64,000 nucleotides of DNA from Clostridiales bacterium (GTDB taxonomy: Bacteria > Bacillota > Clostridia > Lachnospirales > Lachnospiraceae). A program made the position numbers and the translations under genes. Each line of letters starts with the position of its first letter. The stretch's first letter is position 1. Positions 8,826-24,253 of this stretch are shown piece by piece. The notes beneath the pieces are model-generated. The model was not told the origin of the DNA. It ran no database searches and saw only the letters and a program-made list of their open reading frames with translations. Location of the stretch: assembly GCA_012839295.1 (NCBI GenBank), contig DUNO01000005.1:124001-188000 (forward strand), in the 5' to 3' direction.

Positions 8826-9053
8826 TAGAGCCTTATCAGATGGACAGCGTAAAGGATAGGGAGCACGCAAGGAGAGGAATCGAAGAGAGACTTGCAGAGA
8901 GGCTGTGAAAGGGCGCAAGGGAGTTGTGGAGAGAAGCTACGAATAAACGCGATAAGAAGACGTGTGAGGGCATAAAGAGAGGCTACACATAGAGGGTGCG
9001 GGATGATGCAAAGAGAGGCTGAACAAAGAGGATGCAAGGGAGGAAGCCGGGAG
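8826..9053 (+). other. Purine-rich spacer with AGAGAGGCT repeats
   Basis: The 228 bases between the binding protein and the permease are strongly purine-rich on the + strand and repeat GAGAGGCT-like units near 8897, 8927, 8977 and 9013 at irregular intervals. No hairpin terminator and no supported gene is seen. It may be decayed coding sequence or simple repeat expansion within the operon. Confidence 0.5.
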
Positions 9054-9830
9054 ATGGAAGGCAAGGAAGTCGTAAAGAAGCCGATAAAAAAATATGGATT
9101 TAAAGTTATTGTAATATGCTTCTGGCTTCTTCTTTGGGAGGTGGCCAGCTGGCAGGATCCCCGGGAGATATTCATTGCATCGCCGGTATCTGTATTTGTA
9201 ACGCTAATTGGCCTTATTAAGGACGGAGGCTTCTGGGTGACAATTGCCTGGTCCTCCTTCCGCATTACAGCAGGCTTTGTAATGGCATTAGCGGCAGGAA
9301 TTATATTGGCAGCAGCGGCTTATAACAGCAGTGTTTTTCGGGAGCTGATCTCGCCGGTGATGAAAATCATGAAGACGATTCCCGTGGCCTCCTTTATTAT
9401 TCTGGCTCTTTTATGGATCAATAACAAGACGAACCTTTCCATCCTGATTTCTTTTATGATGGTGCTGCCACTGGTCTATACAAATGTATTGCAGGGGCTC
9501 CGGGCGACGGAGCGGGAGCTTCTGCAGATGGCGAAGGTATTCCGCATCAGCCGCTGGAAAAAGGTTGTGGCGATCTATGTTCCTGCGGCACTTCCGTATT
9601 TTATTTCTGCGGTTTCGGTTGGAATGGGCTTTTGCTGGAAGGCCGGGATTGCCGCAGAAGTGATTGGGATTCCCTCCGGCTCTATTGGTGAGCGTTTATA
9701 TGAAGCGAAGCTCTACATTATGACGAAGGAGCTATTTGCATGGACGTTGGTTATTATTGCAATCAGCATGCTGTTTGAAAAGCTGGTTTTGCGCCTGCTG
9801 GCATCGCTGCAAAAGAGCCCGAAAAATTAA
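9054..9830 (+). CDS. ABC importer permease (SsuC/TauC-like)
   Basis: A 258-residue inner-membrane protein with about six helices and the BPD permease signature around ATERELLQMAKVFRISRWKKV, which contacts the ATPase. The start ATG 9054 lies behind GGGAGGA (9038-9044); the earlier in-frame ATGs near 9003 fall in the purine-rich spacer and lack this site. It forms the channel for the lipoprotein receptor upstream and is followed 21 bases later by the ATPase gene. Confidence 0.88.
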   Translation: MEGKEVVKKPIKKYGFKVIVICFWLLLWEVASWQDPREIFIASPVSVFVTLIGLIKDGGFWVTIAWSSFRITAGFVMALAAGIILAAAAYNSSVFRELISPVMKIMKTIPVASFIILALLWINNKTNLSILISFMMVLPLVYTNVLQGLRATERELLQMAKVFRISRWKKVVAIYVPAALPYFISAVSVGMGFCWKAGIAAEVIGIPSGSIGERLYEAKLYIMTKELFAWTLVIIAISMLFEKLVLRLLASLQKSPKN

Positions 9831-9851
9831 CCTCTGGAAGGAGACGGTGGC

Positions 9852-10436
9852 ATGGATATCCAATTGCATAATGTTTCAAAAAGCTTTGAAGGGAAAAGCA
9901 TACTTAAGGATCTTAATATCACCTTTCCAGAGGGCAGGCTGAGCTGCCTGATGGGGGCTTCCGGTATTGGGAAGACAACGGTGGTTAATATTATTATGGG
10001 GCTGATAAAGCCTGACTCAGGAGAAGTGGCGGGAACAAAGCAGAAAAAGGTTGCGGCTGTCTTCCAGGAGGACCGCCTGATTGAGCATTGGGATGCAGTG
10101 AGGAATATTGGATTGGTTTGTGGGAAGGCTGTTACAGAAGAGGCAATTGTGCAGGAATTAAATAAGGTTGGTATCACAGATTGCAGGAATAAAGCAGTCA
10201 AGGACTTTAGCGGCGGTATGCGAAGGCGGGTTGCCCTGGTTCGGGCGGTTCTGGCAAAGAGTGATATTATCATTATGGATGAGCCCTTTAAGGGGCTTGA
10301 TGAAGGTTTAAAAGACCAGGTGATCGAATATGTGCGGGAGAATACGAAAGGGAAAACCGTCATTGTGATAACCCATGACCGGGAGGAAGTAGGCCGGCTA
10401 GGGGCTGGTTTGGTTCAGTTGGAAGGGCAGAGTTAA
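9852..10436 (+). CDS. ABC importer ATPase (SsuB/TauB-like)
   Basis: A 194-residue ATPase with all motifs: Walker A GASGIGKTT near residue 35, Q loop FQEDRL, signature FSGGMRRRV, Walker B IIIMDEP and the switch histidine ITHD. It is about 50 residues shorter than usual SsuB/TauB proteins because it ends just after the H loop. It powers the permease at 9054. With the binding protein this makes a complete importer. Confidence 0.9.
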   Translation: MDIQLHNVSKSFEGKSILKDLNITFPEGRLSCLMGASGIGKTTVVNIIMGLIKPDSGEVAGTKQKKVAAVFQEDRLIEHWDAVRNIGLVCGKAVTEEAIVQELNKVGITDCRNKAVKDFSGGMRRRVALVRAVLAKSDIIIMDEPFKGLDEGLKDQVIEYVRENTKGKTVIVITHDREEVGRLGAGLVQLEGQS

Positions 10437-10443
10437 GCTTTAA

Positions 10444-10468
10444 GGCAGGCTTGACCCTGCCCTATTAT
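10444..10468 (+). terminator. Hairpin after the ABC importer
   Basis: GGCAGG (10444-10449) and CCTGCC (10456-10461) form a short perfect stem just after the ATPase stop. The following sequence is only moderately T-rich, so termination may be weak. Confidence 0.45.
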
Positions 10469-10631
10469 AATAATGCCTGTCGCTTGTAAATCATATTATT
10501 TTTGTCTTTCTATCTATCATCTGTTTCTTCTTGGTACAATCCAAATATTTTGCTTGTGAGTGACCGTGAGAATAAAAATTAATTCAATTAAGATTTATTA
10601 TTATATAAAATATTTGTAAACAAAATGCAAG

Positions 10632-10661
10632 TTATTACATTAAAGTTGCATTTTATTACAT
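10632..10661 (+). promoter_or_regulatory. Direct-repeat operator of LytTR type
   Basis: TTATTACAT occurs at 10632-10640 and again at 10653-10661, 21 bases apart (two helical turns). This is the spacing used by AgrA/ComE-type LytTR regulators. The second copy ends just upstream of where the -35 of the following promoter would lie. It presumably binds the regulator at 10768, giving autoregulation. Confidence 0.6.
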
Positions 10662-10687
10662 CTGAAAATTTCAGAGGAAAAAAATGT

Positions 10688-10693
10688 TATAAT
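10688..10693 (+). promoter_or_regulatory. -10 element of the regulator promoter
   Basis: A perfect TATAAT at 10688-10693 has no recognisable -35 at 17 bases, consistent with dependence on an activator bound at the repeats at 10632-10661. A small palindrome (CTGAAAATTTCAG, 10662-10674) lies between them. Confidence 0.55.
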
Positions 10694-10767
10694 ACTATGG
10701 GTCAAAAGTAGGGTTATTTTATAGGTACAATTTGTAGCATAAATATAACTTGGGAGGGATGAATCAT

Positions 10768-11457
10768 TTGAAAATCGCTATATGTGATGATGAGGAGAAG
10801 TACAGAGAAATAGGGAGGTGGCTGTGCAGTCAGTATTTTTTGGATAAAAGGATATCTTTTGAGGTTATAGAGTTTTCTTCAGGAGAAGCTGTTATTGAAT
10901 ATACAGAAAAAATTGATTTAATCATATTGGATATTGAAATGCAGGGCATGAATGGAATAGAAGTGAAGGAGATTTTGACAAAACGGAATAGTAATGGTGC
11001 AATTATATATGTTACTAATCACGAAGAGTTGATGCAACCCGCCTTCGGAAAGAATGTATATGGATTTTTGTTAAAGCCTATATACGAGGAGGAATTGTAT
11101 CAAATTTTGGATGTGGTTTATAAGAATAGAATGGAACCACGGTTGATCCAGGTTACTGATAGTGTGTGGGTGAGAAGTACAGAAATCCGATATATTTTTG
11201 CAGAGGATAAATATTGCAGGATATATACGATGGATACAAATTATTTGATAAGAAGCAGAATTAGTGATTGGGAGGGGAAGCTTCCGGGTAGTGATTTCAT
11301 TAGGGTTCAGAAATCCTGTATTGTTAATTTCAAATTTATCAGGAGAATCGGACAGGATATTATCATGGAAGATAATACGGTGTTAACTTATTCAAGGAAT
11401 AAGAGGGAAGTGATTAAGAATAATTATAATACATATTTAATAGAGCATGCTTGGTAG
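10768..11457 (+). CDS. LytTR response regulator (AgrA/ComE-like) of the peptide locus
   Basis: A 229-residue regulator: receiver domain with the acidic pair DD at 7-8 and phospho-acceptor D55 (LIILDIEMQG), then a LytTR DNA-binding domain (about 130-228). The best start is TTG 10768, because GGGAGGG (10752-10758) is nine bases upstream of it; ATG 10759 abuts that site with no spacing. Such regulators activate bacteriocin or quorum genes through 9-bp direct repeats 21 bases apart, and repeats of that kind lie upstream of this gene and of the exporter at 12970. Its kinase follows after 14 bases. Confidence 0.9.
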   Translation: MKIAICDDEEKYREIGRWLCSQYFLDKRISFEVIEFSSGEAVIEYTEKIDLIILDIEMQGMNGIEVKEILTKRNSNGAIIYVTNHEELMQPAFGKNVYGFLLKPIYEEELYQILDVVYKNRMEPRLIQVTDSVWVRSTEIRYIFAEDKYCRIYTMDTNYLIRSRISDWEGKLPGSDFIRVQKSCIVNFKFIRRIGQDIIMEDNTVLTYSRNKREVIKNNYNTYLIEHAW

Positions 11458-11471
11458 AGAGGTAAGTATCA

Positions 11472-12806
11472 ATGGGAGCGTATCTTAATATAATCGTAAA
11501 GCAGATCATAGAAACAAGCGTGGTTTTTTATATCCTGTCATTATTGTTGAAAACCCGGATCATAGAGAGCCGATGGAGGGTAGTGGTGGCTGCTACAATT
11601 TTTTGTAGTGCATTTTTTCTGGCAGAAGTAATGGGAAACCACAGCGAAGGTGTTATTGGGCTGGTAGTCCAAGTCATTTGTGTTAACCTGTTATTTAAAG
11701 AGGGAGCACTAAAAAGAAATATTACCTATATTGCCGTATATTGTGGTACAGGTTTAATGGCAGCTATAGTCTATGGAAGTATAGGGAAGGTATCAGGGAT
11801 ACCTGCAGATCAAATCTTGGATAGTTCAATATGTGTGTTTATTGCATATTTTATGGCATTCTTTGCTGCGTTCATTAGTAGATGGCTTGTGGTTAGACAC
11901 CGGAAGATATTTCAGCTGCTGAGACATATGTCAGCAATTGATATTCTACTTTTTGCATCTGCAACGGTACTGTGGGCTTTTGGAATTACATATTATGGGG
12001 AGCTAAGGGATGGGATGGCAGGCTCTTCATGGGATGTGGCCATAATAGATGGCACTAAGCTATTATATAGCTTTAGTTTTTTGATTATAATAGGATATAT
12101 ATGGAAGAGCATTATGAGCCAGCGTTATAAAAAGGAAAGCCTGATGAATGCGGAATTGCTTGATCTGAGAGAAAAATATTATAAGAAATTAATTGAAAAC
12201 AACCGGGAGGTTAGGAGATTCAAGCATGATTTTCAGGCTCATATGACCTGTTTGAGGGAACTGTCCAATATGGAAAAGTTTGATGAAATAAAAGAATATT
12301 TAAATCGAATGGGAAATGACCTGGGTGAGGTGAGTAATAAGTTTAATGTAGGAAATGAAATTGCCAACATTGTCTTGAATGGGTTTTATGAAGAAATGGT
12401 GACAAATCATATTGAGCTGGTATGTACAGGAAAGTTCAGGGGAAATGTCAAGATTTCTTCCCATGAAATATGCGCGTTATTCTATAATATGATGAAAAAC
12501 GCCATAGAAGCATGCATGCAAGTAAATTCAGATAAAAGAGCAATTCATCTGAACATTAAATCTTATTATGATAGCATGGTTATTGAGATCAGTAATTCAG
12601 TTTCTGAACCGGTGGACATTGTTATGATAGGGAAGGGAGGAACGAGGAAAGAGGATAAGAAAAACCATGGATATGGGATGGATAATATGAAAAGAATCAT
12701 ACAAAGGTATGGCGGGGCTATAAAGTATAAGAATGATAGGGATCGGTTCGTTATAGAAATGGTATTGCATGATGTGTATGATGACTGGGAACATGAGCTC
12801 AGTTAG
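11472..12806 (+). CDS. GHKL sensor kinase (AgrC-like) of the peptide locus
   Basis: A 444-residue membrane kinase: about six membrane helices in the first 215 residues, a dimerisation helix with phospho-acceptor H252 in RFKHDFQAHM, then a GHKL ATPase domain (NMMKNAIEAC, and HGYGMDNMKRII as the G box). This is the AgrC/PlnB type that senses a secreted peptide. No separate pheromone gene is obvious, so one of the double-glycine peptides at 15270 or 15505 may be the signal. It ends at the direct-repeat promoter of the exporter. Confidence 0.9.
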   Translation: MGAYLNIIVKQIIETSVVFYILSLLLKTRIIESRWRVVVAATIFCSAFFLAEVMGNHSEGVIGLVVQVICVNLLFKEGALKRNITYIAVYCGTGLMAAIVYGSIGKVSGIPADQILDSSICVFIAYFMAFFAAFISRWLVVRHRKIFQLLRHMSAIDILLFASATVLWAFGITYYGELRDGMAGSSWDVAIIDGTKLLYSFSFLIIIGYIWKSIMSQRYKKESLMNAELLDLREKYYKKLIENNREVRRFKHDFQAHMTCLRELSNMEKFDEIKEYLNRMGNDLGEVSNKFNVGNEIANIVLNGFYEEMVTNHIELVCTGKFRGNVKISSHEICALFYNMMKNAIEACMQVNSDKRAIHLNIKSYYDSMVIEISNSVSEPVDIVMIGKGGTRKEDKKNHGYGMDNMKRIIQRYGGAIKYKNDRDRFVIEMVLHDVYDDWEHELS

Positions 12807-12837
12807 GCACGCTCCTTCCTTTATCCATCTGCTGCAT

Positions 12838-12869
12838 TTCACGACATTAATTTGTACTTCACGACATTA
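12838..12869 (+). promoter_or_regulatory. Direct-repeat operator before the exporter
   Basis: TTCACGACATTA is present at 12838-12849 and exactly repeated at 12858-12869 (20 bases apart). The ACATTA core is shared with the repeat at 10632-10661. The second copy ends three bases before the -35 of the exporter promoter, the expected position for a LytTR activator. Confidence 0.65.
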
Positions 12870-12872
12870 GAG

Positions 12873-12901
12873 TTGTAAAGCTTTCCAATAATTGTTATGC
12901 T
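12873..12901 (+). promoter_or_regulatory. Promoter of the exporter operon
   Basis: TTGTAA (12873-12878), 17 bases, TATGCT (12896-12901). Suboptimal hexamers immediately downstream of the direct repeats suggest activation by the regulator at 10768. Confidence 0.6.
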
Positions 12902-12969
12902 CAAAGCAAAGAAAGCCAAGCTTATTGCGGCATACGTACAGATTAAGAGATGCAGAAGGAAACAGAACT

Positions 12970-15156
12970 ATGCGAAACAAATACTATTGTGTCAGACAGC
13001 ATGATATCACTGACTGCGGGGCGGCATGTCTGGCTACCATATCAAAGCAGTATGGTTTTCATACATCCATAACCAAGATACGGGAGGCAGCAGGGACAGA
13101 TAAGCAGGGAACGAATGCTTATGGGATGATTAAAGCAGCAGAGCAGCTGGGGTTCTCCGCTAAGGGTGTAAAAGGGGATAAGAATGCTTTCTTTTCAGAA
13201 TTTCCGCTTCCCTGCATTGCCCATGTAATTGTTGACGGGGCTTTACTGCACTATGTTATTGTACATAAAATTACAAAAAAGCAGATTACGATTGCAGATC
13301 CGGCAAAGGGGATTGTGAAGCTAACCCCGGAAGAATTCTTTGGAGAAAAGGCAGAGCAGGGGAAGGCGCCTAAGTACCGTTGGAGCGGTGTACTGATTAT
13401 CATGGTACCTGACCGGGGATTTGAAAAAGGAGATGAGACCCAGGGGATTTTCCAGAGATTTTTTCATCTGCTATTGCCCCAGAAAAGGCTGCTGGTCAAT
13501 GTTTTTTTTGCATCATTGCTGATTACAATATTAGGTATCTTAGGGTCATTTTATTTTAAGGTATTGATTGATGATATATTATCGGCCGGTTTATTAAAGA
13601 CGTTGCATATTCTATCCATCGGGGTTATACTGCTGAATTTATTTAAGGTTTTATTATCTGCCATCCGTGCCCATTTTCTCTTGTATCTAAGTCAGAAGCT
13701 GGATATTGCATTGCTGCTGGGTTATTACCGCCATGTCTTGAAGCTCCCGATGAACTTTTTTGGAACCCGCAAGGTCGGTGAGATCATATCAAGGTTTAAT
13801 GATGCCTCCAAGGTACGGGATGCAATATCGGGTGCCACGCTTACAATTATGATAGATACGTTGATGGTAATTGCCGGTGGAATTATATTGTTTCTGCAGA
13901 ATGGGTATATGTTTGTTGTTACACTGATTGTGGCAGTCTTATATTTCGCAATTGTAGTGAGCTTTAACAAATGGTACAAAAAGCTAAACCAGGCCCAGAT
14001 GGAGAATAATGCACAGTTGACCTCATATATGGTTGAGTCATTGAATGGTATTCAGACAGTAAAGGCATATAATGCGGAGAGAAAAGTAAATCTGGAGACA
14101 GAAATAAAATTCATCCGTCTGCTGAAAAGTATATTCAGATTAAGCTGGGTCAGTAACTTACAGGGAACCTTTGTGGGCTTTGTGGAGCTTACAGGAGGAA
14201 TCGTAATCTTGTGGGTAGGTGCTTATAATGTAATTAAAGGAAATTTGAGCATTGGGCAGCTGATTACCTTCAACTCGTTACTGATGTATTTTCTTGATCC
14301 AGTCAAAAACTTGATTAATCTTCAGCCACAGATGCAGACGGCAATTGTAGCAGCAGACCGGCTTGGTGAAATCCTGGATCTGGAGCCGGAAAGAGTTGGT
14401 GGAGAGGATAAAAAATTAATACCCGAATCGCTGCGGGGGAATATCTGGTTTAAGGATGTGACCTTCCGTTATGGTACAAGAAGGACGGTACTGGAGCATA
14501 TCACGATGCACATCAAGAAGGGTGAGCGCATTGCATTGGTAGGTGAAAGTGGGTCGGGCAAGACAACGCTGGTAAAGCTTTTACTTAATCTTTATAGCCC
14601 GGAGGAAGGAGATGTCTTGATTAATGGAAATAATGTGAAAGATATCAACCTTGAAAGGCTGCGGGACAAGATAGCATATATCCCTCAGGAAACATTTCTG
14701 TTCAGCGGAAGTATTATGGATAATTTAACACTTGGGTTGGATGATGTAACAGTAGAAGATGCTATTGAAGCATCAAAGAAGGCTCGGGCTCACGACTTTA
14801 TTAATGATCTTCCACTCCGGTATGAGACAAGGCTGGAGGAAAATGGGACAAATTTTTCGGGGGGACAGAGGCAGAGGTTGGCGATAACGAGAGCAATTTT
14901 AAAAAAGCCGGATATCTTGATTCTGGATGAGGCTACCAGTAATCTGGACTCTATTACGGAGAGGGCAATTGAAAATACAATTGAGAATTATAGTAAAAAT
15001 ATAACAACAATAATCATTGCACATCGGCTCAGCACAATTAAGAGGTGTGACATGATATATGTGATGGAGAAAGGGAAAATAATTGAAGCGGGAAAACACG
15101 AGCAATTACTTGATATAAAAGGTGAGTATGCAAAGTTATGGAAGCAGCAGGTTTAA
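12970..15156 (+). CDS. Peptidase-containing ABC exporter (C39 family)
   Basis: A 728-residue exporter that should remove double-glycine leaders and export the mature peptide. The N-terminal C39 cysteine protease (about 1-140) has catalytic C16 in QHDITDCGAACL and the histidine region HYVIVHKI followed by ADPAKG. Membrane helices span about 165-450. The ATPase domain has Walker A GESGSGKTT, signature NFSGGQRQR, Walker B ILILDEATS and an H-loop histidine. ATG 12970 is preceded by AGAAGGAAA; an earlier in-frame ATG at 12892 overlaps the promoter. Substrates are probably the two peptides encoded directly downstream; the adaptor at 16780 is its likely partner. Confidence 0.95.
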   Translation: MRNKYYCVRQHDITDCGAACLATISKQYGFHTSITKIREAAGTDKQGTNAYGMIKAAEQLGFSAKGVKGDKNAFFSEFPLPCIAHVIVDGALLHYVIVHKITKKQITIADPAKGIVKLTPEEFFGEKAEQGKAPKYRWSGVLIIMVPDRGFEKGDETQGIFQRFFHLLLPQKRLLVNVFFASLLITILGILGSFYFKVLIDDILSAGLLKTLHILSIGVILLNLFKVLLSAIRAHFLLYLSQKLDIALLLGYYRHVLKLPMNFFGTRKVGEIISRFNDASKVRDAISGATLTIMIDTLMVIAGGIILFLQNGYMFVVTLIVAVLYFAIVVSFNKWYKKLNQAQMENNAQLTSYMVESLNGIQTVKAYNAERKVNLETEIKFIRLLKSIFRLSWVSNLQGTFVGFVELTGGIVILWVGAYNVIKGNLSIGQLITFNSLLMYFLDPVKNLINLQPQMQTAIVAADRLGEILDLEPERVGGEDKKLIPESLRGNIWFKDVTFRYGTRRTVLEHITMHIKKGERIALVGESGSGKTTLVKLLLNLYSPEEGDVLINGNNVKDINLERLRDKIAYIPQETFLFSGSIMDNLTLGLDDVTVEDAIEASKKARAHDFINDLPLRYETRLEENGTNFSGGQRQRLAITRAILKKPDILILDEATSNLDSITERAIENTIENYSKNITTIIIAHRLSTIKRCDMIYVMEKGKIIEAGKHEQLLDIKGEYAKLWKQQV

Positions 15157-15201
15157 TAGTTCTAAAGAACGAAAATCAAAAATGGTAGCTAAGATGTATA
15201 T

Positions 15202-15234
15202 AGTTTCTTAAGTAATATGCGCGCAAAAGAAACT
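15202..15234 (+). other. Hairpin between exporter and peptide genes
   Basis: AGTTTCTT (15202-15209) and AAGAAACT (15227-15234) form an 8-bp stem with a 17-base loop and no T-run. It may mark an mRNA processing or stability point so that peptide mRNA exceeds exporter mRNA. Confidence 0.35.
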
Positions 15235-15269
15235 AATTACATAAATAATATATGAGAGGAGAAATATGA

Positions 15270-15470
15270 ATGTCCGAATATGTTAATATGGGTAATTTGA
15301 CAGAAATGAGTATGGATGAAGCTATTATGGTTGCCGGTGGTGGAATAGTTACATTGTTTTTAGGATGCGTTGGTTTGGCGGTATCCCCGACAGTAGCTTG
15401 CCTTTGCGCCCCGGCAGGTATTGCATTGGCATTGACATCAGGTGGAGCAATTATTAATAATTTGCCATAA
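15270..15470 (+). CDS. Double-glycine leader peptide 1 (bacteriocin-like)
   Basis: A 66-residue precursor. The leader LTEMSMDEAIMVAGG matches the double-glycine type cut by C39 exporters; cleavage after G24 leaves a 42-residue, glycine/alanine-rich, hydrophobic peptide with three cysteines and a GG pair near the end. The ATG is behind GAGAGGAGA. It lies directly after the exporter and 34 bases before a second such peptide, so the two may act together as a two-peptide bacteriocin, or one may be the signal for the kinase at 11472. I do not recognise a named bacteriocin. Confidence 0.82.
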   Translation: MSEYVNMGNLTEMSMDEAIMVAGGGIVTLFLGCVGLAVSPTVACLCAPAGIALALTSGGAIINNLP

Positions 15471-15504
15471 TATCAATCAAAAGAATGAAAGGAGTTGAGT
15501 AGAA

Positions 15505-15690
15505 ATGAATTCAAATTGTTTTGTTGAGTTAACGAACAATGAAATGACTATCGTTGATGGTGGGAGTTGGCTTGGAAACACTTTGATGCTTGCTGGTGCA
15601 TTAGTTGGTATTTGTGCTACAGGACCGGTAGGAGTCGGTGTGGGCATAGCTTGTGCAGTTATTGGCTTCTGCGATTCGCAAGGCTGGTAG
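15505..15690 (+). CDS. Double-glycine leader peptide 2 (bacteriocin-like)
   Basis: A 61-residue precursor with leader VELTNNEMTIVDGG and cleavage expected after G20, leaving a 41-residue hydrophobic peptide. It carries GxxxG-type spacing (GALVG, then GPVGVGVG), the helix-packing motif of class IIb two-peptide bacteriocins, and two cysteines. The ribosome site GAAAGGAG is well placed. It is adjacent to peptide 1 and likely co-transcribed. Confidence 0.83.
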   Translation: MNSNCFVELTNNEMTIVDGGSWLGNTLMLAGALVGICATGPVGVGVGIACAVIGFCDSQGW

Positions 15691-15794
15691 CAAGTGATTA
15701 CGTATTATGGGGAGATGCTACAAATGCATCCCCCATAATATTATTATACTGAAATGAAGCCATAAGTATTGTATATGAGAGGAAGAAAATCCAT

Positions 15795-16325
15795 ATGGAG
15801 AAATTATCTTATTTTCTTTTAATTATAATTGCATCTATAATTTTTGTTTCATTTATTAGCTTTCACTTTTATTCATACCTAAAATTTAAATTATTATTAA
15901 GGAGGAATAGTGCGGTATTGCTGATGGATCGCATATATGAAGTTGCTATTTGGATTGTTGGCATTTTATACTTGGGAATATACGTTTCTGATATTGTGGA
16001 TACGGTTGTTTTGGGACAATATGGAGATTGGAAGTTCCCATTTGTGGTTTACGCAATGCCGCTTATGATAATTACATTTAATATCATGATAAGTGAGGGT
16101 TCCTACGCATATAATAGTGATAAATTATTTGTAGGAAGTAAGAAAACTTTTGATAAAGAAAAGGTAAAAATTATCCAAGTCCATAAACAAGACTTTACAA
16201 AGCGAGCGAAAATTATTGTAACAATTGATCATGATAATGACATGATTCGAACGAAAAGTACAAGACTGGTAATCAGAACATCCATAAAAGAGCTACAGTC
16301 CTTTATAGAGTTATATGGAGGATAA
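15795..16325 (+). CDS. Membrane protein, candidate bacteriocin immunity protein
   Basis: I do not recognise a named family. The 176 residues have a membrane helix at about 5-28, two more at about 48-72 and 83-102, and a C-terminal cytoplasmic part rich in basic residues with beta character. The layout and several positions resemble the 168-residue protein at 20616 (a charged loop, a LLMDRIYEVAIW-like segment versus FMIDKVFLFGTS, then a similar C-terminal half). Placement directly after the two peptides suggests immunity, by analogy only. Confidence 0.55.
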   Translation: MEKLSYFLLIIIASIIFVSFISFHFYSYLKFKLLLRRNSAVLLMDRIYEVAIWIVGILYLGIYVSDIVDTVVLGQYGDWKFPFVVYAMPLMIITFNIMISEGSYAYNSDKLFVGSKKTFDKEKVKIIQVHKQDFTKRAKIIVTIDHDNDMIRTKSTRLVIRTSIKELQSFIELYGG

Positions 16326-16452
16326 ACGCCCTGAGAATAGGGCATAGAGTCAGACATAAAATGATGATTTGCACTAAATGTGATAGGTGATTTGGCTGAT
16401 TATCTGGGGGAAGATAGAATAGTATTAATGAATTTAACGGGAGATAAATAAA

Positions 16453-16632
16453 ATGGACAAAACATTTATTCAAGAAAAAGACAATAAAGGCAAAGCAATA
16501 GCTCCACTGATGCTTGGGCTAGTAAGTATAATCGTCTAGTTTATACCCTTATTTGGACTATCAGTTACTGTAGTGGGTTTGGTTATTAGGGGTGTATCTT
16601 ATGCTTCAAAGAATGAGTTTAATATAATATGA
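16453..16632 (+). pseudogene. Small DUF4190-like membrane protein with in-frame stop
   Basis: A frame starting ATG 16453 (behind GGGAGA) encodes MDKTFIQEKDNKGK, then APLMLGLVSIIV, a TAG stop at 16537-16539, and then FIPLFGLSVTVVGLVIRG to a final stop at 16630. The two halves together read like one small two-helix membrane protein of the DUF4190 kind, in which a Trp codon would fit the stop position. One base change would explain it. Either a recent pseudogene or a read error. Confidence 0.6.
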
Positions 16633-16779
16633 GAACATTATCATAATTATATCCTTTATAGCATTTTTTAAAATGCTTGCAAATAAAAATAAAAAGGCAA
16701 GTTAAAAGTGATCTAAGAGATGTGCTTAAAATAGGGTTATATCCTATTCTGTTAAGAAAAATAAAATTTGGAGTTACAT

Positions 16780-18654
16780 ATGAAACCAATCCTCGTTAAT
16801 ATCAATGAAATATCAGACAGCAGAGAGGTTTATGAATCAAAACCAAATATCTTCTTTAGTATTTTTATATATACAGTTCTTACACTATTTATCGTAGCCC
16901 TTCTATGGATGTACATTGGGCGCATTGATGTAGTGGTAAAATCAGAGGGGATGCTCCGGCCGAATGACCAGGTGGCTACCATAATAAACAGCTCCAGCGG
17001 TACTCTGGAAGAGGTAAATGTAGAGGATGGTATACCTGTGGTTCAGGGGGATGTACTTTACATAATCGAGCATGGAGATTTGTTAACAGAACAGGAATAT
17101 TATATGGAGCAGTTGGCAGATACTCAATATAAATTAACAATGCTCAAAAAATACAAAAAATCAATTGAAGATGGTATAAACCATTTCACCCAAGAGGAAG
17201 GTGAAGGGGAGTATTATCTGAAATATCAGGCTTATGAGCTAAATTATAACCTGATGAAAAATGACTATTCCTATAGTGAAAAGGAAAGGATACTGAATCT
17301 GGATTCAACGCTGGAACAACTGGCGATCTTAAACCAAAAGCTTTCCTACTCAAAGCAGTTAAAAAAGGCAGTTGCTTCAGGAAAGAATGTCTTTGCAAAT
17401 ACGGGGGAGCAGAAGGAGTATTATAACCTATTCCTAAAATACCGGAATGATTATGATTCTATCCTAACCCAGTATAGCAATGCAAAAAAGGACATAGACA
17501 ATTCCACAACGGAACAGGGGCTGGTCGATTCCCTGGAATATTATCAGTCTGTTTTAGAAGGGATGCAGCAGCTAAAATTAAGCATTAATGAGGGAAGCAG
17601 TGTTTTCCGAGAGAAGAGTACATACAGCCTCCAGTATGATGAATACGTGAACAAGATAGCCGATTTAACAGCGGCATATGAGCAGGCAAAGGAAAACTAT
17701 GAAATTAACAATGAACTGAAAGGACTGTCTGTAACAGAATGGGAGGTACAGCAGTCTGAGACAGCCATGGAGGAAGCAGGGAGGGCAGTCAGCACCTACC
17801 AGGTAAATTTTCTTTCGGCTCTTTCCTCCAATATTACCGACATGGAAAAGAAGATAGAGGAAACGGCTCTTGCAAAGGACAATACCGTGAGCAAGGATGT
17901 ATTGTACCGTGAAAATGAGGATGAACGAAAGGCTGCATTAGACAATTACAAGTTAAAATACCTGGTTGAACTTGATAATACGATTACAACGCTGGAAGAA
18001 AATATCAGTACGCTTGAAACAAACAGGGACAGGTTGAAGTTACAAGGGGAAAAGAACTTAATGATGGATAACGGTGATGAGGAAGCTAAACTGGTGGAAT
18101 ACCGTAACAGTGAGTTACGCAGTACCATTGCCAGCATTGATTCGTATTCAGATAAGGCTGGTGAGTTAAGGACTACCTTGGACAAGCTCAATACCCAGAT
18201 TGACCAGGCGGTTGTAAAAGCGACCAGGACGGGGATCGTAAACAGCAATGTTGAGCTTGTAAAAGGAGATATCCTATCAAGCGGCACGGAGGTTCTTACG
18301 ATAATACCCCAGGACAACAATAAATTTAAGGTAAATATCTATGTCAGCAATGAAAACATTGGCAAGCTGAGGCCTGGAATGGAGGCAAAATTCAATATCT
18401 ATGCCTTGCCGAACAGAGAATATGGATATATGACAGGGACAATTACAAGCATCTCAAAGGATCTTAAGGTAGACCCAAGCAGTGGTTCGGGGTATTATCT
18501 TGTAGAAGCGAGCCTGGGCAATAAGACGTTATATGACTCCAAGGGGAATAAAGGCGAGTTAAAAGCTGGTATGAGCTGCCAAGCGCAGATGATTACAGAG
18601 AGAAAACGAATTCTGACTTATGTATTAGAAAAAATAGACCTATGGAATGATTGA
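16780..18654 (+). CDS. HlyD-like adaptor of the peptide exporter, long coiled coil
   Basis: A 624-residue membrane-fusion-type protein. One membrane helix at about 24-46 anchors it; the lipoyl-like half motif LRPNDQVATIINSSSGTLEEV (about 60-85) and its second half (about 470-510, VKATRTGIVNSN) flank a very long helical coiled coil of roughly 370 residues, far longer than usual HlyD/ComB-type adaptors. A beta-barrel end domain follows. ATG 16780 has TTGGAG seven bases upstream; the frame also opens at TTG 16768 without a site. It is expected to couple the exporter at 12970 to the exterior, and may dock on the TolC-like protein at 19223. Confidence 0.85.
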   Translation: MKPILVNINEISDSREVYESKPNIFFSIFIYTVLTLFIVALLWMYIGRIDVVVKSEGMLRPNDQVATIINSSSGTLEEVNVEDGIPVVQGDVLYIIEHGDLLTEQEYYMEQLADTQYKLTMLKKYKKSIEDGINHFTQEEGEGEYYLKYQAYELNYNLMKNDYSYSEKERILNLDSTLEQLAILNQKLSYSKQLKKAVASGKNVFANTGEQKEYYNLFLKYRNDYDSILTQYSNAKKDIDNSTTEQGLVDSLEYYQSVLEGMQQLKLSINEGSSVFREKSTYSLQYDEYVNKIADLTAAYEQAKENYEINNELKGLSVTEWEVQQSETAMEEAGRAVSTYQVNFLSALSSNITDMEKKIEETALAKDNTVSKDVLYRENEDERKAALDNYKLKYLVELDNTITTLEENISTLETNRDRLKLQGEKNLMMDNGDEEAKLVEYRNSELRSTIASIDSYSDKAGELRTTLDKLNTQIDQAVVKATRTGIVNSNVELVKGDILSSGTEVLTIIPQDNNKFKVNIYVSNENIGKLRPGMEAKFNIYALPNREYGYMTGTITSISKDLKVDPSSGSGYYLVEASLGNKTLYDSKGNKGELKAGMSCQAQMITERKRILTYVLEKIDLWND

Positions 18655-18683
18655 AAATATATACAAAAGAATGGAGAAAAATT

Positions 18684-19136
18684 ATGGAAGTTATATTAAA
18701 CCAGGAATATGAAATGAATCATTTAATCACCCGCTCAGGACGTTTTACAGTAGCTGAGTTTCAAAAAAATCTAATGGAGATGGCAAATTCCTATAAAGAC
18801 TTTGCAGTAAACAACGGGGAATATATGATAACAACTACAAAAGCAGTTGAATTTATTGCCGGTGAACAGGTGATGGATGTTGAGATACTGATGCCTGTGG
18901 ACTACCGCATGCCGGTAGAGGAGCCTTATCAGTTTAAGGAAAAGGTTAGGCTTGTCAATGCCCTATATGTAAAGGTTACTGATCCTGCACTGTTGCAGGA
19001 AACCTTGAACCAGGTAAATGGATATATCACAGAAAACAAGCTCCAGCCAATTACCCCCGCATATCTTGTACAGACAAAGCAGGACAGCAAATCATGCATA
19101 GAGGTTTATGTGGGCATGAATCCGAATGTTTTGTAA
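18684..19136 (+). CDS. Hypothetical protein, GyrI-like fold suspected
   Basis: A soluble 150-residue protein. Two halves of similar design can be seen (ITRSGRFTVAEFQKNLMEM ... VDVEILMPVDYRMP and LVNALYVKVTDPALLQETLNQVNGYI ... IEVYVGMNPN), which suggests the two-repeat GyrI/effector-binding fold, with the caution that this is fold-level guesswork. ATG 18684 has TGGAG at the right distance; the frame opens earlier at 18651, overlapping the adaptor stop. Location between adaptor and TolC-like gene suggests a role in the secretion locus, unknown in kind. Confidence 0.5.
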   Translation: MEVILNQEYEMNHLITRSGRFTVAEFQKNLMEMANSYKDFAVNNGEYMITTTKAVEFIAGEQVMDVEILMPVDYRMPVEEPYQFKEKVRLVNALYVKVTDPALLQETLNQVNGYITENKLQPITPAYLVQTKQDSKSCIEVYVGMNPNVL

Positions 19137-19222
19137 TTTTGAAACAGTACAGAACAGGTCAGGGATTTTGTACATAGGAAATCATTTTTTGCAATGGAAA
19201 AACAAAAGACAGGGGCATTAGG

Positions 19223-20497
19223 ATGTACAACAAAAAGCATAATTCATATTGGTTAAAGTGGATGTTGTTCCTTATATCGGTCATCCTGTATTGCGGTATC
19301 GTAGGAAAACAGGTATCCGCAGCGGAAGCTGCCTATGAAATAGGGACAGGCACCATAAGCAGCCAGTACAGTGACTTAGTAAATAAATATAAATCCAACA
19401 GCGCGGACTACGCCCAGAATATGCTTAGCTATCAGATAGAAGCGCTGAATCATAACCTTACCGTGGAAAGCCGTGCCGGTATTAACAGTCGGTTTGAGGA
19501 GGCCGTTAATAAATGCGCCCAGCTAAAGGAATTGAAGGAGAAATATATTGAGTACCGTGCAACAGTGACGGATGAGGCGGAGATTGAGGGGATTGATGCC
19601 CAGATCCAGTCACTTACAGAACAGATCGACCAATATAACAGTACAATCAGCAGCTACCAGACCAGCCTGGCTGAAACAAGCCTGCAGGCAGAAATCGAAA
19701 GCTTTTATGTGATTTACCAGGGCTTGCTTGTTCAGGAAGCTCAGGATAAATTATTAAATAACTTTATGAAAAAATGCTATGGGTTAATCCTGCTTCAGGA
19801 GCAGGAGGATTATTATGCCAGCTGCAATGATTATCTTTCGGTTGTGCAGAAAGTAGAGGAGATAAAGTTTAAGAATGGGGTCAGTACCCAATTATCCGTA
19901 GATTTGGCAGATGCCAACCTGTTTAAGAATAACCTCGCATTACAGAATAATACCAAGTCCTTCTACCTAACTTATACGGAAATAAAAACAGAGACCGGGG
20001 GATCGGATCAGACCCGGATTATGTTGCCGATAGCGGTCAGTAAGAAGCAATACAGCCTTGAAAATACGGCTTCCCAGTTTGAATATAGAAATGTCACTTT
20101 GGCACAATATAAGCATCTGGAGCGATGTTATCAAAGCTACCTGTCTTCGAACAACGGTACCGGAACCTTGCAGCATCAAATCGAACTGAAGATCCGGGAC
20201 TACCAGCTCCGGTATAATGCACTGAAAAACAATATCAGGACATATGTTACAGATGCCATTTATACATATGATAATGAGTTCCAGAACCTCGCTCTGGCAG
20301 ATAAGGAATTCCAGATTGCCCAGAAAAATTATAATACGATGGACACAAAAAAGAAATATAAGAAAGCAACTGAGTTGGACGTGGCTAAGGCAAAGAGTGA
20401 AATGGAGTCTGCGGAGATGGCTTATTATCAATGTATTTATAATATTATCATATGGCAGAATATTCTTGACAATGGAGTCTATGGGGCAACGCCATAG
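19223..20497 (+). CDS. TolC-like coiled-coil exported protein
   Basis: A 424-residue secreted or envelope protein with a signal peptide (hydrophobic core about 10-28, likely cleavage after VSAAEA). The rest is almost entirely helical coiled coil. It shows the internal duplication of the TolC helical domain: EEIKFKNGVSTQLSVDLADANLFKNN and later KKYKKATELDVAKAKSEMESAEM each match the repeat K..G..T.LDV..A....N. No beta-barrel strands are evident, as expected for a monoderm. It follows the adaptor and exporter genes, so it may extend the export conduit through the cell wall. Confident on the fold, unsure on the function. Confidence 0.65.
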   Translation: MYNKKHNSYWLKWMLFLISVILYCGIVGKQVSAAEAAYEIGTGTISSQYSDLVNKYKSNSADYAQNMLSYQIEALNHNLTVESRAGINSRFEEAVNKCAQLKELKEKYIEYRATVTDEAEIEGIDAQIQSLTEQIDQYNSTISSYQTSLAETSLQAEIESFYVIYQGLLVQEAQDKLLNNFMKKCYGLILLQEQEDYYASCNDYLSVVQKVEEIKFKNGVSTQLSVDLADANLFKNNLALQNNTKSFYLTYTEIKTETGGSDQTRIMLPIAVSKKQYSLENTASQFEYRNVTLAQYKHLERCYQSYLSSNNGTGTLQHQIELKIRDYQLRYNALKNNIRTYVTDAIYTYDNEFQNLALADKEFQIAQKNYNTMDTKKKYKKATELDVAKAKSEMESAEMAYYQCIYNIIIWQNILDNGVYGATP

Positions 20498-20615
20498 GCA
20501 AGCTCTTATCTGGATCCCTGATTATGATGATAAAAAATTCGGGATATGATAAAATTTTTTTAAGCAATTATAATTATTTATTTTAAAGAGTATTGATGAA
20601 TACGGAGGGTAGTAT

Positions 20616-21122
20616 ATGGAAGGGATTATGAGAGGAATTATGTTGGTAGTATTTGTTGCATGCGCTATCTTTATAATCTATACTTCAAGGCATGTCCTGA
20701 AGTTTTATAAGGAAGCAAAGGATAGAGACACATCTTTCATGATAGATAAAGTGTTTTTGTTTGGTACTTCTGTAGTGGGAATCGTGTTTGTAGGGTATTT
20801 CTTTTGTGCAGTTACAGAGTATATTAATTTGATGGCAGCGAATCAGAGTGTGAAAGCGATCATGTATTATGGTTATATATTTGGAATTCTATTTTTTTCT
20901 ATAGATAATTTACTGCAACAAAGTATGCTTGCTATTGGTAAGGAGCATTTTATTATCTACAGAAATATATTTCAGCTTAGTAGCGTATCACTCACTGGAA
21001 GTAAGAAATATTTATTTAGAGTAACAGCCGATGTTGCTTCTTGTGGTAAAAAGTACAGAATTAGATTAAGTAAGGATAATTACAATAAAATGGTAGATAA
21101 GTTAACCGGATTAGTTATGTAA
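20616..21122 (+). CDS. Membrane protein, paralogue of the protein at 15795
   Basis: Not assignable to a named family. The 168 residues have membrane helices at about 5-27, 45-68 and 82-105, and a C-terminal soluble half (about 108-168) ending RLSKDNYNKMVDKLTGLVM. Overall organisation parallels the protein at 15795. It has its own site GGAGGG before ATG 20616. Being the second membrane protein of this type in a locus with two peptides, it may be the second immunity factor, which is inference. Confidence 0.55.
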   Translation: MEGIMRGIMLVVFVACAIFIIYTSRHVLKFYKEAKDRDTSFMIDKVFLFGTSVVGIVFVGYFFCAVTEYINLMAANQSVKAIMYYGYIFGILFFSIDNLLQQSMLAIGKEHFIIYRNIFQLSSVSLTGSKKYLFRVTADVASCGKKYRIRLSKDNYNKMVDKLTGLVM

Positions 21123-21185
21123 GTATTAAGGGGTGAGGCAATCAAGCATGTTTTTGCGGGAGGAAACATAGTTATAAAAAATAAA

Positions 21186-21356
21186 TTGAGCTTCTATAAA
21201 GCGTACATTTTTCTTTATTTAATATTATCAATAAATTTTGGTATAAATTTTTTACGTTGGTTAAGGCTTGTTTCTGGATTGGGATTTATAATAACGTCAA
21301 TATTATGTATTACGTTTATCGTATTACACATAAAGGAAAAAAATCCGGGTAAGTAA
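21186..21356 (+). CDS. Doubtful small hydrophobic ORF
   Basis: A frame open from 21138 to a stop at 21354-21356 encodes about 56 residues from TTG 21186, with two hydrophobic stretches (AYIFLYLILSINFGI and SGLGFIITSILCITFIVLHI). It looks like a small membrane protein, but no ATG exists and the only ribosome site, GGGAGGA at 21159-21165, is too far away. It is either started oddly, or broken at its 5' end. Confidence 0.3.
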   Translation: MSFYKAYIFLYLILSINFGINFLRWLRLVSGLGFIITSILCITFIVLHIKEKNPGK

Positions 21357-21399
21357 AAAAATCGTTGTTAAATAATAAAACTAAGCGAGGTGTAAAGCA

Positions 21400-21594
21400 T
21401 TGATTTGCCCTAATTGTAATGCGTCCATGAAAAAGATAAGGATGGTAGGTGATATAACCGGGATGGGTGTATATTTAGTAAATAAAGAAAAAGGACTTCT
21501 GGGAATGGAACGAAGGAGCAATATCAACACATTCGTATGCCCAAAATGCGGTAAGCTGGAGCTTGTTGCTGAAAACCCGGATGTATTTAGCTGA
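21400..21594 (+). CDS. Small zinc-ribbon protein
   Basis: A 64-residue protein with two cysteine pairs, CPNC near the start and CPKC near residue 49, spaced as a zinc ribbon. The start is TTG 21400, eight bases after GCGAGGTG. Function unknown; small zinc ribbons of this kind occur in bacteriocin and conjugative clusters alike. Confidence 0.65.
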   Translation: MICPNCNASMKKIRMVGDITGMGVYLVNKEKGLLGMERRSNINTFVCPKCGKLELVAENPDVFS

Positions 21595-21670
21595 CTATTT
21601 GTATTAATGTAAACAAATATGCTGTTGAGGCTATTGATTGATATAGTCATATAGTAAAAGGGGAAAAAAT

Positions 21671-21811
21671 ATGGATGATAAAAAACAACGAACCCTCATT
21701 ATGATGATTATCTTGCTTGGTGTAGGTTTGATTTTCATGATTATTTGCTGGAAATCCGGGTTATCGGTAAGGAAGGAATTAGGGGAATTAATTTATAATC
21801 TTAAACATTAA
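21671..21811 (+). CDS. Small single-helix membrane protein
   Basis: A 46-residue frame starting ATG 21671 behind AGGGGAAAA. One hydrophobic helix (RTLIMMIILLGVGLIFMIICW) lies between a charged N-terminus and a mixed C-terminus. No family recognised. Part of the tail of small ORFs in the peptide locus. Confidence 0.5.
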   Translation: MDDKKQRTLIMMIILLGVGLIFMIICWKSGLSVRKELGELIYNLKH

Positions 21812-21891
21812 TTAAAACACACAAGGGATTACGTATATAAAACTTTTGACCTTAGTAAAAGCTTTAGCAAAAAAATTGAGGCGGTGTTAGT

Positions 21892-22014
21892 ATAGATAAA
21901 AACAGGTTTGAACTGCAAATAAACTTGTTAGAAAACAAATATGAGAAGCTCATTTATGACTGGTATAGGCAGATATGTAGTATCTTTTTGATATCATTAT
22001 TCGTTTTTTTATAA
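21892..22014 (+). CDS. Possible small ORF with ATA start
   Basis: A well-placed ribosome site (GAGGCGG, 21879-21885) is followed seven bases later by ATA GAT AAA, which opens a 40-codon frame (DKNRFELQINLLENKYEKL then a hydrophobic end SIFLISLFVFL). If ATA is a start it would be rare; if it is a mutated ATG the gene is crippled. No family recognised. Confidence 0.3.
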   Translation: MDKNRFELQINLLENKYEKLIYDWYRQICSIFLISLFVFL

Positions 22015-22040
22015 ATTTATAATAAATGCCTTTTAACTTA

Positions 22041-22108
22041 GCACAACCAACCGATATAATCCGGATTTTTCGGATCCGTTTTACATTGGGGTGTTGTGCT
22101 ATTTTTTA
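22041..22108 (+). terminator. Terminator at the end of the peptide locus
   Basis: GCACAAC (22041-22047) pairs with GTTGTGC (22093-22099), followed by a T-rich tract. An inner hairpin (ATCCGG and CGGAT near 22060-22075) lies in the loop. It closes the run of small genes. Confidence 0.7.
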
Positions 22109-22201
22109 TCTTATGCTATATTCAAAAGCAAATGAGGATTCGGGAGCTATGCCAAAAATATGCTTCACCACAGGCAAGCGGTTTGGGGAAGGGGTAAGTC
22201 T

Positions 22202-22912
22202 ATGGTTAATATTGCATTGGTTGAGGATGACAAAGCCTACGCGGAAACACTGAAAAGTTACTTAAAGCAATTTGAGCAGGAACGGGGGGAAAGGCTCCGG
22301 GTAACGGTTTTTTCTGACGGGGAGGATATTATAGAAAACTATAAGGCAGATTATGATATTATCCTGATGGATATAGAGATGATGTTCATGGATGGAATGA
22401 CGGCAGCAGAGGAGATCCGTAAGATGGATACGGAGGTAGTGATTATCTTCATCACAAACATGCCCCAGTATGCCATCAAGGGTTACACGGTTGATGCCCT
22501 GGATTATGTATTAAAGCCCATCTCTTATTTTGCACTGTCCCAGCGCCTGGACCGTGCCTTAACCAGAATGAAGAAGCGCTCTAAGAAATTCCTGACCATT
22601 GCCTTCAAAGGCGGGGCTAAAAAGCTGGATATCTCTGAGATCTGTTATGTCGAGGTTCAAAACCATGACCTGATTTTCCACACCATGGGTGGGGATTATA
22701 CCACCAAGGGGTCCATGAGGAATATTGAGAACAGCCTGGATAAGAATAAGTTCTTCCGCTGCAACAAATGCTATCTGATTAACTTGGATTATGTGGAGAG
22801 CTTTCATAATTATGACGTGGTTGTAGGCAGGGATACGGTTCAGGTGAGCCGTGCCCGGAAAAAGGAATTTCTTGATATGCTCAATAATAATATGAACGAG
22901 GTGAGCAAGTGA
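22202..22912 (+). CDS. LytTR response regulator, glycosidase locus 1
   Basis: A 236-residue regulator with receiver (acidic ED at 8-9, phospho-acceptor D57 in DIILMDIEM) and a LytTR DNA-binding domain (about 135-232, KGSMRNIENSL, FFRCNKCYLINLDYV). The start ATG 22202 is preceded by AAGGGGTAAG; the frame also opens at 22160. It is closely related to the regulator at 46694 (same length, same D57 context). The kinase gene overlaps its 3' end by four bases. Confidence 0.9.
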   Translation: MVNIALVEDDKAYAETLKSYLKQFEQERGERLRVTVFSDGEDIIENYKADYDIILMDIEMMFMDGMTAAEEIRKMDTEVVIIFITNMPQYAIKGYTVDALDYVLKPISYFALSQRLDRALTRMKKRSKKFLTIAFKGGAKKLDISEICYVEVQNHDLIFHTMGGDYTTKGSMRNIENSLDKNKFFRCNKCYLINLDYVESFHNYDVVVGRDTVQVSRARKKEFLDMLNNNMNEVSK

Positions 22913-24231
22913 ATTTTGCTGATATAACCAACACACCCGGAGAATATTATGCGGTAGCCTATGGACTGGCCTGTATGCTGTTCATAGGCCAGTCGAAAAA
23001 GCGGGTTTCCTTGTGGAAATGCTATGGGGCACAGCTCCTGTTCTTTGTCGCCATCATTACCTTTATGGAGCTTACGGCGGATGTGTCCGGCCTCTTGTTT
23101 ATTCCCTGCATTTTGCTGGATGTGCTGATGATCTTTGCCGTGATTTATTTCTGTTGTGATATGCCCGTCCTTAAGGCGGGGTATTATTGTGCAAGGGCTT
23201 TTATCCTGGGTGAGTTTGTAGCCTCCCTGACCTGGCAGATTTATTATTACTCCGTGCTGCGGCTCGGCCTGTCCACTCATCTTCTGGTGAACATTTTGTT
23301 TGTGGGGCTGGTTTATTTGATTATCTACAGCTTCATGTATTACTTGGAAAAGCAGCATTACGAGGAAAACCGGAACCTGCAGGTAGCCGGGCGTGAGTTT
23401 CTGTCCGTGGTGATTATAAGCCTCCTCGTATTCATGATGAGTAATTTAAGCTATGTTTATGAAAATACACCCTTTAGCAGCAAGCTGGCGTCCGATATCT
23501 TTAATATCCGTACCCTGGTAGACCTGGGAGGGGTGGCAATCCTTCATGCTTACAATGTACAGCTGGGTGAGCTGCAGATGAAATTTGAGGTGAAGACGCT
23601 CCAGAATATGCTGAACTGGCAATATGCCAATTACCAGATTGCACAGCAAAGCATTGATATGGTGAACCAGAAATACCATGATTTAAAGCATCAGATTGCC
23701 ATCCTCCGGGCTGAGGTGGATTCCAAGGAAAGCATGGCCTACCTGGAGCAGATGGAAAATGAGATAAAAATTTATGAGGCCCAGAATAAAACGGGAAATA
23801 AAATTCTGGACACTGTGCTGACGGGAAAAAATATCTATTGCCAAAGTAGCGGGATTAACCTGACGGTGGTGGCAGATGGCCTGGCCCTGGATTTTATGGA
23901 GCCTATGGATATCAGCACCCTTTTTGGAAATGCCCTGGATAACGCCATTGAAAGTGTCAGAAAGCTTCCAGAGGAAGAAAAACGCCTGATCCATGTTGCT
24001 GTAACAAGGCAGAGGGACTTCTTAAGAATCCGGGTTGAGAATTATTATGAAGGCAATCTGGTATTTGAAAACGGCCTTCCGGCTACGACGAAGGAGGACA
24101 AGGAATATCACGGCTATGGGCTGAAAAGTATCCGGAATACAGTTAAAAAGTACAATGGCTCCGTGACAATCGATGCCAAGGAGAAGTGGTTTGAGCTGAG
24201 AATACTGATTCCGCTACCAAGAACGAAATAA
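22909..24231 (+). CDS. GHKL sensor kinase, glycosidase locus 1
   Basis: A 440-residue membrane kinase with about six helices in residues 1-190, a HDLKHQ motif (H257 or H261) as phospho-acceptor region, and a GHKL ATPase domain (FGNALDNAIESV, EYHGYGLKSIRNTVKKY). It starts at GTG 22909, overlapping the regulator stop, so translation is coupled. It resembles the kinase at 47401. The ligand is unknown; the downstream membrane glycosidase suggests a saccharide or glycoside cue, which is inference. Confidence 0.9.
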   Translation: MNFADITNTPGEYYAVAYGLACMLFIGQSKKRVSLWKCYGAQLLFFVAIITFMELTADVSGLLFIPCILLDVLMIFAVIYFCCDMPVLKAGYYCARAFILGEFVASLTWQIYYYSVLRLGLSTHLLVNILFVGLVYLIIYSFMYYLEKQHYEENRNLQVAGREFLSVVIISLLVFMMSNLSYVYENTPFSSKLASDIFNIRTLVDLGGVAILHAYNVQLGELQMKFEVKTLQNMLNWQYANYQIAQQSIDMVNQKYHDLKHQIAILRAEVDSKESMAYLEQMENEIKIYEAQNKTGNKILDTVLTGKNIYCQSSGINLTVVADGLALDFMEPMDISTLFGNALDNAIESVRKLPEEEKRLIHVAVTRQRDFLRIRVENYYEGNLVFENGLPATTKEDKEYHGYGLKSIRNTVKKYNGSVTIDAKEKWFELRILIPLPRTK

Positions 24232-24253
24232 AAGACAGATCCAGCTATCCTTA

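Follow-up and report, generated by a model that had tools for sequence, protein, structure and literature searches.

Class II bacteriocins are exported by protein pairs of the MesD/MesE or ComA/ComB type, in which an ATP-binding cassette (ABC) exporter with a C39 peptidase domain, acting on double-glycine peptides, is accompanied by an HlyD-like accessory protein, the whole being under two-component regulation. In diderms, colicin V export follows the type I scheme of CvaB-CvaA-TolC, made of a C39-ABC exporter, an adaptor and a TolC fold whose beta-barrel spans the outer membrane. In monoderms, to which the Lachnospiraceae belong, the usual view is that export machinery for peptides stops at the membrane and that the peptides then diffuse across the wall. 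Here we examine a locus from a Lachnospiraceae genome of 6.36 Mb, contained in a window of 64,000 nucleotides (the whole stretch of DNA that was analysed, G000:C2:124001-188000), in which a C39 exporter and its adaptor are followed by a third part, a TolC-like protein predicted to have no barrel.

TolC-like proteins have already been described in monoderms. PMC8809574 (2022), in the sections consulted, shows 12 examples in five families of monoderm Firmicutes, many of them sharing an operon with the two remaining components of a pump, while BAM is absent; part of the barrel is omitted in the C. difficile model, and S-layer anchoring is proposed. The general idea is therefore not new, and the first-pass annotation of this window, which had put the locus forward as an undescribed system, went too far. 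Those proteins and the present one are alike in being secreted OEP family members, many of them encoded in operons, of cells with one membrane and no BAM, and the C. difficile model shares the lack of a barrel part. They are, however, presented as efflux pumps, whereas the partners here are a C39 double-glycine exporter and a lengthened HlyD-type adaptor; a C39 case may be present among the 12 operons of that study (its figure S6A). The sections of PMC4446572 consulted describe extremely large hairpins in Gram-positive adaptors, the HlyD-like accessory proteins of class II bacteriocin pairs among them; a folding role is discussed, and such hairpins are held to be hard to explain if their sole task were bridging to an outer-membrane factor. 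As far as the corresponding excerpts go, surface extracts of Desulfotomaculum reducens, which is Gram-positive, contain HlyD-family and OEP proteins (PMC4137172), diderm-like secretion loci were not found in monoderms (PMC4793230), no comparable case is mentioned (PMC8277102) and the main text does not refer to TolC (PMC5007114). Among the matches listed from the open-licence literature, none concerns a monoderm in which a C39 double-glycine exporter is combined with a TolC-like protein, which does not prove absence. The pairing with such an exporter and with a lengthened adaptor is thus probably the new part, TolC-like proteins in monoderms being known.

Judged by its sequence, the locus is of the class II bacteriocin type: LytTR/GHKL regulators, a C39-ABC exporter, two double-glycine peptides, an adaptor and the TolC-like protein, all encoded on the + strand from 10750 to about 21600. 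The exporter, of the PCAT/bacteriocin type (12970-15156 from its ATG, in an open reading frame that opens with TTG at 12892), matches TIGR01193 with 685.7 bits (cut-off 523.85) and Peptidase_C39 with an E-value of 7e-37. Peptide A (15270-15470) has a leader of 24 aa and a product of 42 aa, peptide B (15505-15690) a leader of 20 aa and a product of 41 aa, and both leaders carry, by eye, hydrophobic, E and hydrophobic residues at -12/-8/-7. The exporter and the double-glycine peptides are those of PCAT-type export. A scan with the leader pattern gave these two peptides as the sole hits in 9000-24500 and five hits across the window. Going by the protein families, the two peptides would form a two-peptide class II bacteriocin. 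Neither reaches a curated bacteriocin family of the class IIb two-peptide kind: peptide A matched no Pfam family, and peptide B stayed below the cut-offs of Bacteriocin_IIc (PF10439, 20.6 bits) and TIGR03949 (17.2 bits). Among nine loci scanned in which the adaptor precedes an intact TolC-like gene (L131 was outside the peptide scan), four encode a double-glycine peptide pair (the window, L042, L043 and L092). L044 has a 45-residue stretch 76% identical to peptide B, and no such peptide was seen in L045, L121, L122 and L123, the contigs of which break off inside the exporter or short of it.

The third part (19223-20497, 424 aa) is, by profile search and predicted fold, a secreted TolC-like protein of the OEP family. 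It matches Pfam OEP (PF02321) with 29.7 bits (cut-off 22, E 7e-7), the best stretch aligning residues 319-413 with profile positions 86-180 of 187, and is the only OEP match in the host genome at E<=0.01. When nine members of the family were aligned, the one from the window among them, six gave an OEP match at E<=0.1 (best 1.2e-11). The only hydrophobic segment, residues 10-28, is consistent with the signal peptide proposed by the first-pass annotation. An AlphaFold2 model, computed from an alignment that included four relatives, reaches a mean predicted local distance difference test (pLDDT) score of 81.8 and displays helices of 100 (118-217), 65 (314-378) and 34 (384-417) residues among others. 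Its sole strands (37-40, 45-48 and 264-269) are all short and make no beta-barrel, as the earlier claim of a barrel-less protein had it. Compared with PDB by Foldseek, the model found outer-membrane factors at ranks 1 to 44 (TolC, OprM, CusC, VceC, MtrE and kin; a few of them under generic titles), 22 of the matches having E<=0.001 with a top value of 2.7e-6, while rank 45 was unrelated (probability 0.33). The relation to TolC, first proposed from the letters alone, is thus borne out by both the family profile and the predicted structure.

The TolC fold, with its two repeats of long antiparallel helices, is recognizable in the model as a topology rather than an exact shape. The two-fold repeat appears there and also as a tip motif, G..(S/T)..(D/E)(V/L)..A, present in both halves of the protein in a nine-member alignment that was made without L131. 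In our reading of this alignment, a turn of 9-11 residues stands where TolC has its second barrel site, and a poorly conserved helical hairpin of 38 to 99 residues replaces the first. With segment limits set by hand, the mean pair identity is 0.38 and 0.35 at the two tips and 0.35 in the last helix, against 0.22 and 0.15 at the barrel sites; conservation is thus among the highest at the tips and among the lowest at the barrel sites. In TolC pumps, the tips are the place where the adaptor docks.

An outer membrane that such a protein could cross is not indicated either. Omp85 profile searches gave no match in the host genome, in any of the nine genomes (the host and eight others) with the locus and its triad of exporter, adaptor and TolC-like gene, or in 33 of the 34 genomes of the genus, while the control search was positive in 7 of 14 named genomes. 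The crossing of an outer membrane, which belongs to type I systems, is thus not indicated here, a diderm host is rejected because Omp85 is absent, and the monoderm host assumed by the first-pass annotation stands. The sole Omp85 match in the genus (L066, G201:C18, E 5.4e-31) comes from a genome 87% complete and is contamination or something unusual.

The adaptor (16780-18654, 624 aa from its ATG, in a frame that opens with TTG at 16768) matches HlyD_3 with 54.7 bits (E 1.9e-14) and has one N-terminal hydrophobic segment; it remains below the cut-offs of TIGR01843 (HlyD; 140.7 bits versus 208.65) and TIGR01000 (accessory protein; 116.5 bits versus 258.85). Its helical region extends over about residues 104-484 in a low-confidence model and comprises 357 residues by alignment columns, in keeping with the long coil first noticed in the translation. 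As controls we used related C39-adaptor pairs without a TolC-like gene, of which 10 from 14 loci were compared; L098 (a 347-aa frame), L100 (at a contig start) and L101 and L106 (split frames) were left out of the comparison and of the tree, as were, on the side having the gene, L122 (whose adaptor runs into the end of its contig) and L131 (adaptor of 629 aa). The coil columns hold 356-361 residues in 8 of 8 adaptors accompanied by a TolC-like gene and 227-286 residues in 9 of 10 without it (Fisher's exact p 0.0004, relatives being counted as independent), so that the coil is about 70-130 residues longer here than in those nine pairs. The alignment thus shows a longer predicted coil in the clade having the TolC-like gene. 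If the coil is one hairpin, it would reach some 50-100 Angstrom further and span no more than about 270 Angstrom in all (with 1.5 Angstrom taken per residue). Both figures are upper bounds, since a single hairpin cannot be made out in the poor model of the adaptor.

Across genomes, the three genes recur in the same order. All 10 loci with an intact TolC-like gene of this type, from 9 genomes in two families of Clostridia, encode the adaptor upstream of it, and the C39 exporter lies further upstream in eight of them (in pieces in L044), the contigs ending first in L045 and L122; the survey called for by the first-pass annotation is therefore in line with its proposal. The adaptor directly adjoins the TolC-like gene in 8 of the 10 loci. 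In the window a small conserved protein is encoded between them; L042 has the gene for this protein there too, together with one of the TraB family. ABC exporter, adaptor and outer-membrane factor are thus encoded together, as in type I secretion gene sets. One genome (G969) carries two copies of the locus (L131 and L121).

The gene itself is sparsely distributed. A search with the single sequence matched 8 of the 34 genus genomes: intact copies in G000, G225, G209, G198 and G222, pieces in G211 and G228 (in the latter at a contig end), and in G196 a tail that terminates an 822-aa C39 frame. Adaptor and TolC-like gene occur at full length in the same 5 of 34 genomes, G206 having a 56-residue adaptor piece. 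The single-sequence search matched only the host genome in a sample of the order (1/196). A sample of the class gave four genomes (4/391), namely the host and three genomes of another family (f31), in which 5 of 32 genomes match. In the Lachnospiraceae family, an adaptor profile found 16 of 397 genomes at E<=1e-30, host included; among the 15 others a TolC-like gene is present in G280 only, a hit in G419 falling inside the adaptor frame itself.

Other TolC-like genes exist in this family. The Pfam OEP search matched 103 of the 397 genomes at E<=0.01 (66 over the cut-off), matches which were sorted in part, frames over 650 aa looking like unrelated coiled coils. In seven other Lachnospiraceae genomes (L051-L059), TolC-like genes, mostly in tandem and with frames of about 380-510 aa, lie next to genes for an adaptor and for a pump, about 1000 aa long and by eye of the RND type (two frames in L056), often with a TetR-like regulator; by eye, these loci look like another class of TolC-like system in monoderms. 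Tandem pairs with neither exporter nor adaptor seen adjacent were found at L060:7031-9396, L132:2747-5042 and L133:1636-3931. The tandem proteins of L051-L060 resemble ours in being of OEP type, of similar length and from the same family, and the nine-member profile matches them in two sets (E 8e-10 over 320 columns, probability 96.5, for the second; E 3.9e-8 over 260 columns, probability 95.0, for the first). They differ in their pump, RND-like by eye in L051-L059 and not seen adjacent in L060, in usually having two TolC-like genes, and in that no C39 was seen. Two further Lachnospiraceae genomes carry OEP proteins with two strong OEP repeats beside MacAB-looking genes (L049:2954-4309 and L050:3455-4738), which at a guess are diderm contamination of the assemblies.

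On this basis we propose the following scheme. The regulators would switch the locus on; the C39 exporter, as its family suggests, would cleave both leaders and export the putative two-peptide class II bacteriocin; and the adaptor would be seated on the exporter with its long coil pointing outward. The TolC-like protein, secreted by Sec, would form a trimer, an alpha-barrel devoid of outer-membrane barrel, capping the tips of the adaptor via its conserved helical tips, and the resulting duct, crossing the wall or S-layer partly or entirely, would lead the peptides outward. We give this type I-like tripartite peptide duct in a monoderm a probability of about 0.5, trimer, docking, duct and cargo being its inferred elements. 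The first-pass annotation is therefore confirmed as an observation and partly supported as an interpretation, its wall conduit being the conjectural part.

Several observations weigh against such a duct. As to the fold, TM-scores of the model with outer-membrane factors of PDB are only 0.25-0.46 with large root-mean-square deviations, therefore chain topology matches more than exact curvature. The two-fold repeat described by the first-pass annotation holds in the model and in the tip motifs but is weak when the profiles of repeats 1 and 2 are compared (21 columns, probability 6.8), and the nine-member profile has no significant match with the single sequence of E. coli TolC (E 0.19). Used as controls against the TolC-like profile, two adaptor alignments gave probabilities of 42.9 (E 2.5e-4) and 0.75 and the small conserved protein 0.04; the first of these values implies that a coiled-coil background exists. 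As to the adaptor, its model is poor (pLDDT 57.6) and a single hairpin is not measurable from it. One adaptor, L093, has a coil of 376 residues in a genome without any TolC-like match, and L101, whose two pieces sum to about 614 residues, may be another long adaptor that lacks a TolC-like partner gene. In the midpoint-rooted adaptor tree, the gene label needs two changes, and the adaptors with the gene form one group together with L093, the placement of which is unsure because its branch is long; coil length and TolC-like gene may come from one evolutionary event. As to distribution, 14 of the 16 family genomes with a related adaptor have no TolC-like gene, therefore peptide export is possible without the third part. 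In f31, genomes G988 and G989 carry more distant, stand-alone tandem TolC-like pairs without exporter. Finally, the locus decays within the genus, with exporters in pieces (L044:13058-13991 and L046:3228-4996) and an exporter frame ending in the tail of a TolC-like gene (L047:9541-12009).

The alternative that survives best, though we consider it somewhat unlikely, is that the TolC-like protein docks on the adaptor and makes no duct, being anchored in the S-layer or serving as a cap, a folding cage or a self-protection device that keeps the peptides off the producer membrane. Cell walls are porous to small peptides, which counts for such a role. S-layer anchoring is also the proposal made for the TolC-like proteins of monoderm Firmicutes in the consulted sections of PMC8809574, and a folding function of large Gram-positive adaptor hairpins is discussed in those of PMC4446572. 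SLH domains occur in the host genome (8 matches) and in 28 of the 34 genus genomes. On the other hand, they do not track the gene: they are present in 4 of the 5 genomes with an intact triad (the exception, G225, being 81% complete) and in 24 of the 29 without. The presence of an S-layer was thus discarded as a predictor of the triad, and this search neither supports the S-layer idea nor rules it out. Pfam finds no wall-binding domain in the TolC-like protein, which also counts against this alternative.

Less probable by far is that the gene is a relic, retained after loss of an outer membrane or acquired from a diderm and deprived of any present function. Its patchy spread, with any piece in only 8/34 genus genomes and 4/391 of the class sample, and the broken exporters and fused remnant just mentioned would fit a relic. 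A relic is, however, at odds with intact frames, an N-terminal hydrophobic segment and tips conserved across two families, with a gene order kept in a different family and twice in one genome, and with the retention of a matching long adaptor, which would not be expected.

It is highly improbable that coiled coils in general account for the TolC likeness, the protein then being unrelated to TolC and a coiled-coil protein of the wall or one that binds peptides. Weak Pfam matches to other coiled-coil families, the weak comparison between repeats, the adaptor control and the result with E. coli TolC alone lean that way; yet the curated OEP cut-off was passed, all 44 top fold matches are outer-membrane factors, the tip motif lies in both halves, and from the fold matches, the profile controls and the conserved tips we judged chance similarity unlikely. 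Hardly credible, finally, is a host with an outer membrane and an ordinary type I secretion system, whose gene set the locus does possess, given that Omp85 had no match in the host, in the triad genomes or in 33 of the 34 genus genomes, that the modelled protein has no barrel to insert and that Lachnospiraceae are monoderm.

Upstream of the exporter are encoded an AgrA-like LytTR response regulator (10750-11457; Response_reg 1.4e-16, LytTR 3.4e-16) and an AgrC-like GHKL sensor kinase with six hydrophobic segments (11472-12806; HATPase_c_5 4.3e-20). Between them and the exporter, the 12-bp sequence TTCACGACATTA is directly repeated without mismatch at a period of 20 (12838-12869); this is a candidate regulator site, with the arrangement expected of LytTR-type sites. 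When at most 2 mismatches are allowed, the single motif has 4 matches in the window for 4.48 expected, no excess over chance, and it has no exact match among 124 loci. Two small membrane proteins, recognized by their hydrophobic segments, may give immunity: the product of 15795-16325, with a 44% identical relative in L044, and that of 20616-21122, which weakly resembles it (22.7% identity over 66 aa, E 1.7e-4). The conserved small protein between adaptor and TolC-like gene (18684-19136) is 51-57% identical to relatives in four genus genomes and reaches only 15.0 bits with DUF5085 (cut-off 30). It was dismissed as a factor specific to the third part because a relative (34% over 156 aa) is present in L095, from a genome without TolC-like match. 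A terminator-like stem at 22062-22078 possibly ends the cluster (11 stems in the region, for a mean of 6.2 in shuffled sequences). Directly downstream of the locus, at 22160-24231, a second pair of LytTR-type regulator and GHKL-type kinase is recognized by eye.

Tentatively, and with odds slightly under even, some Clostridia may possess a dedicated type I-like machine adapted to a single-membrane envelope, in which the adaptor coil would have lengthened along with the acquisition of a third part, a TolC fold devoid of its outer-membrane barrel, and a closed duct would lead bacteriocins from the C39 exporter past the wall or S-layer. With a barrel-less TolC fold linked to the export of class II bacteriocins, the large hairpins of Gram-positive adaptors become a testable question. 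So does the fate of TolC where the outer membrane is absent.

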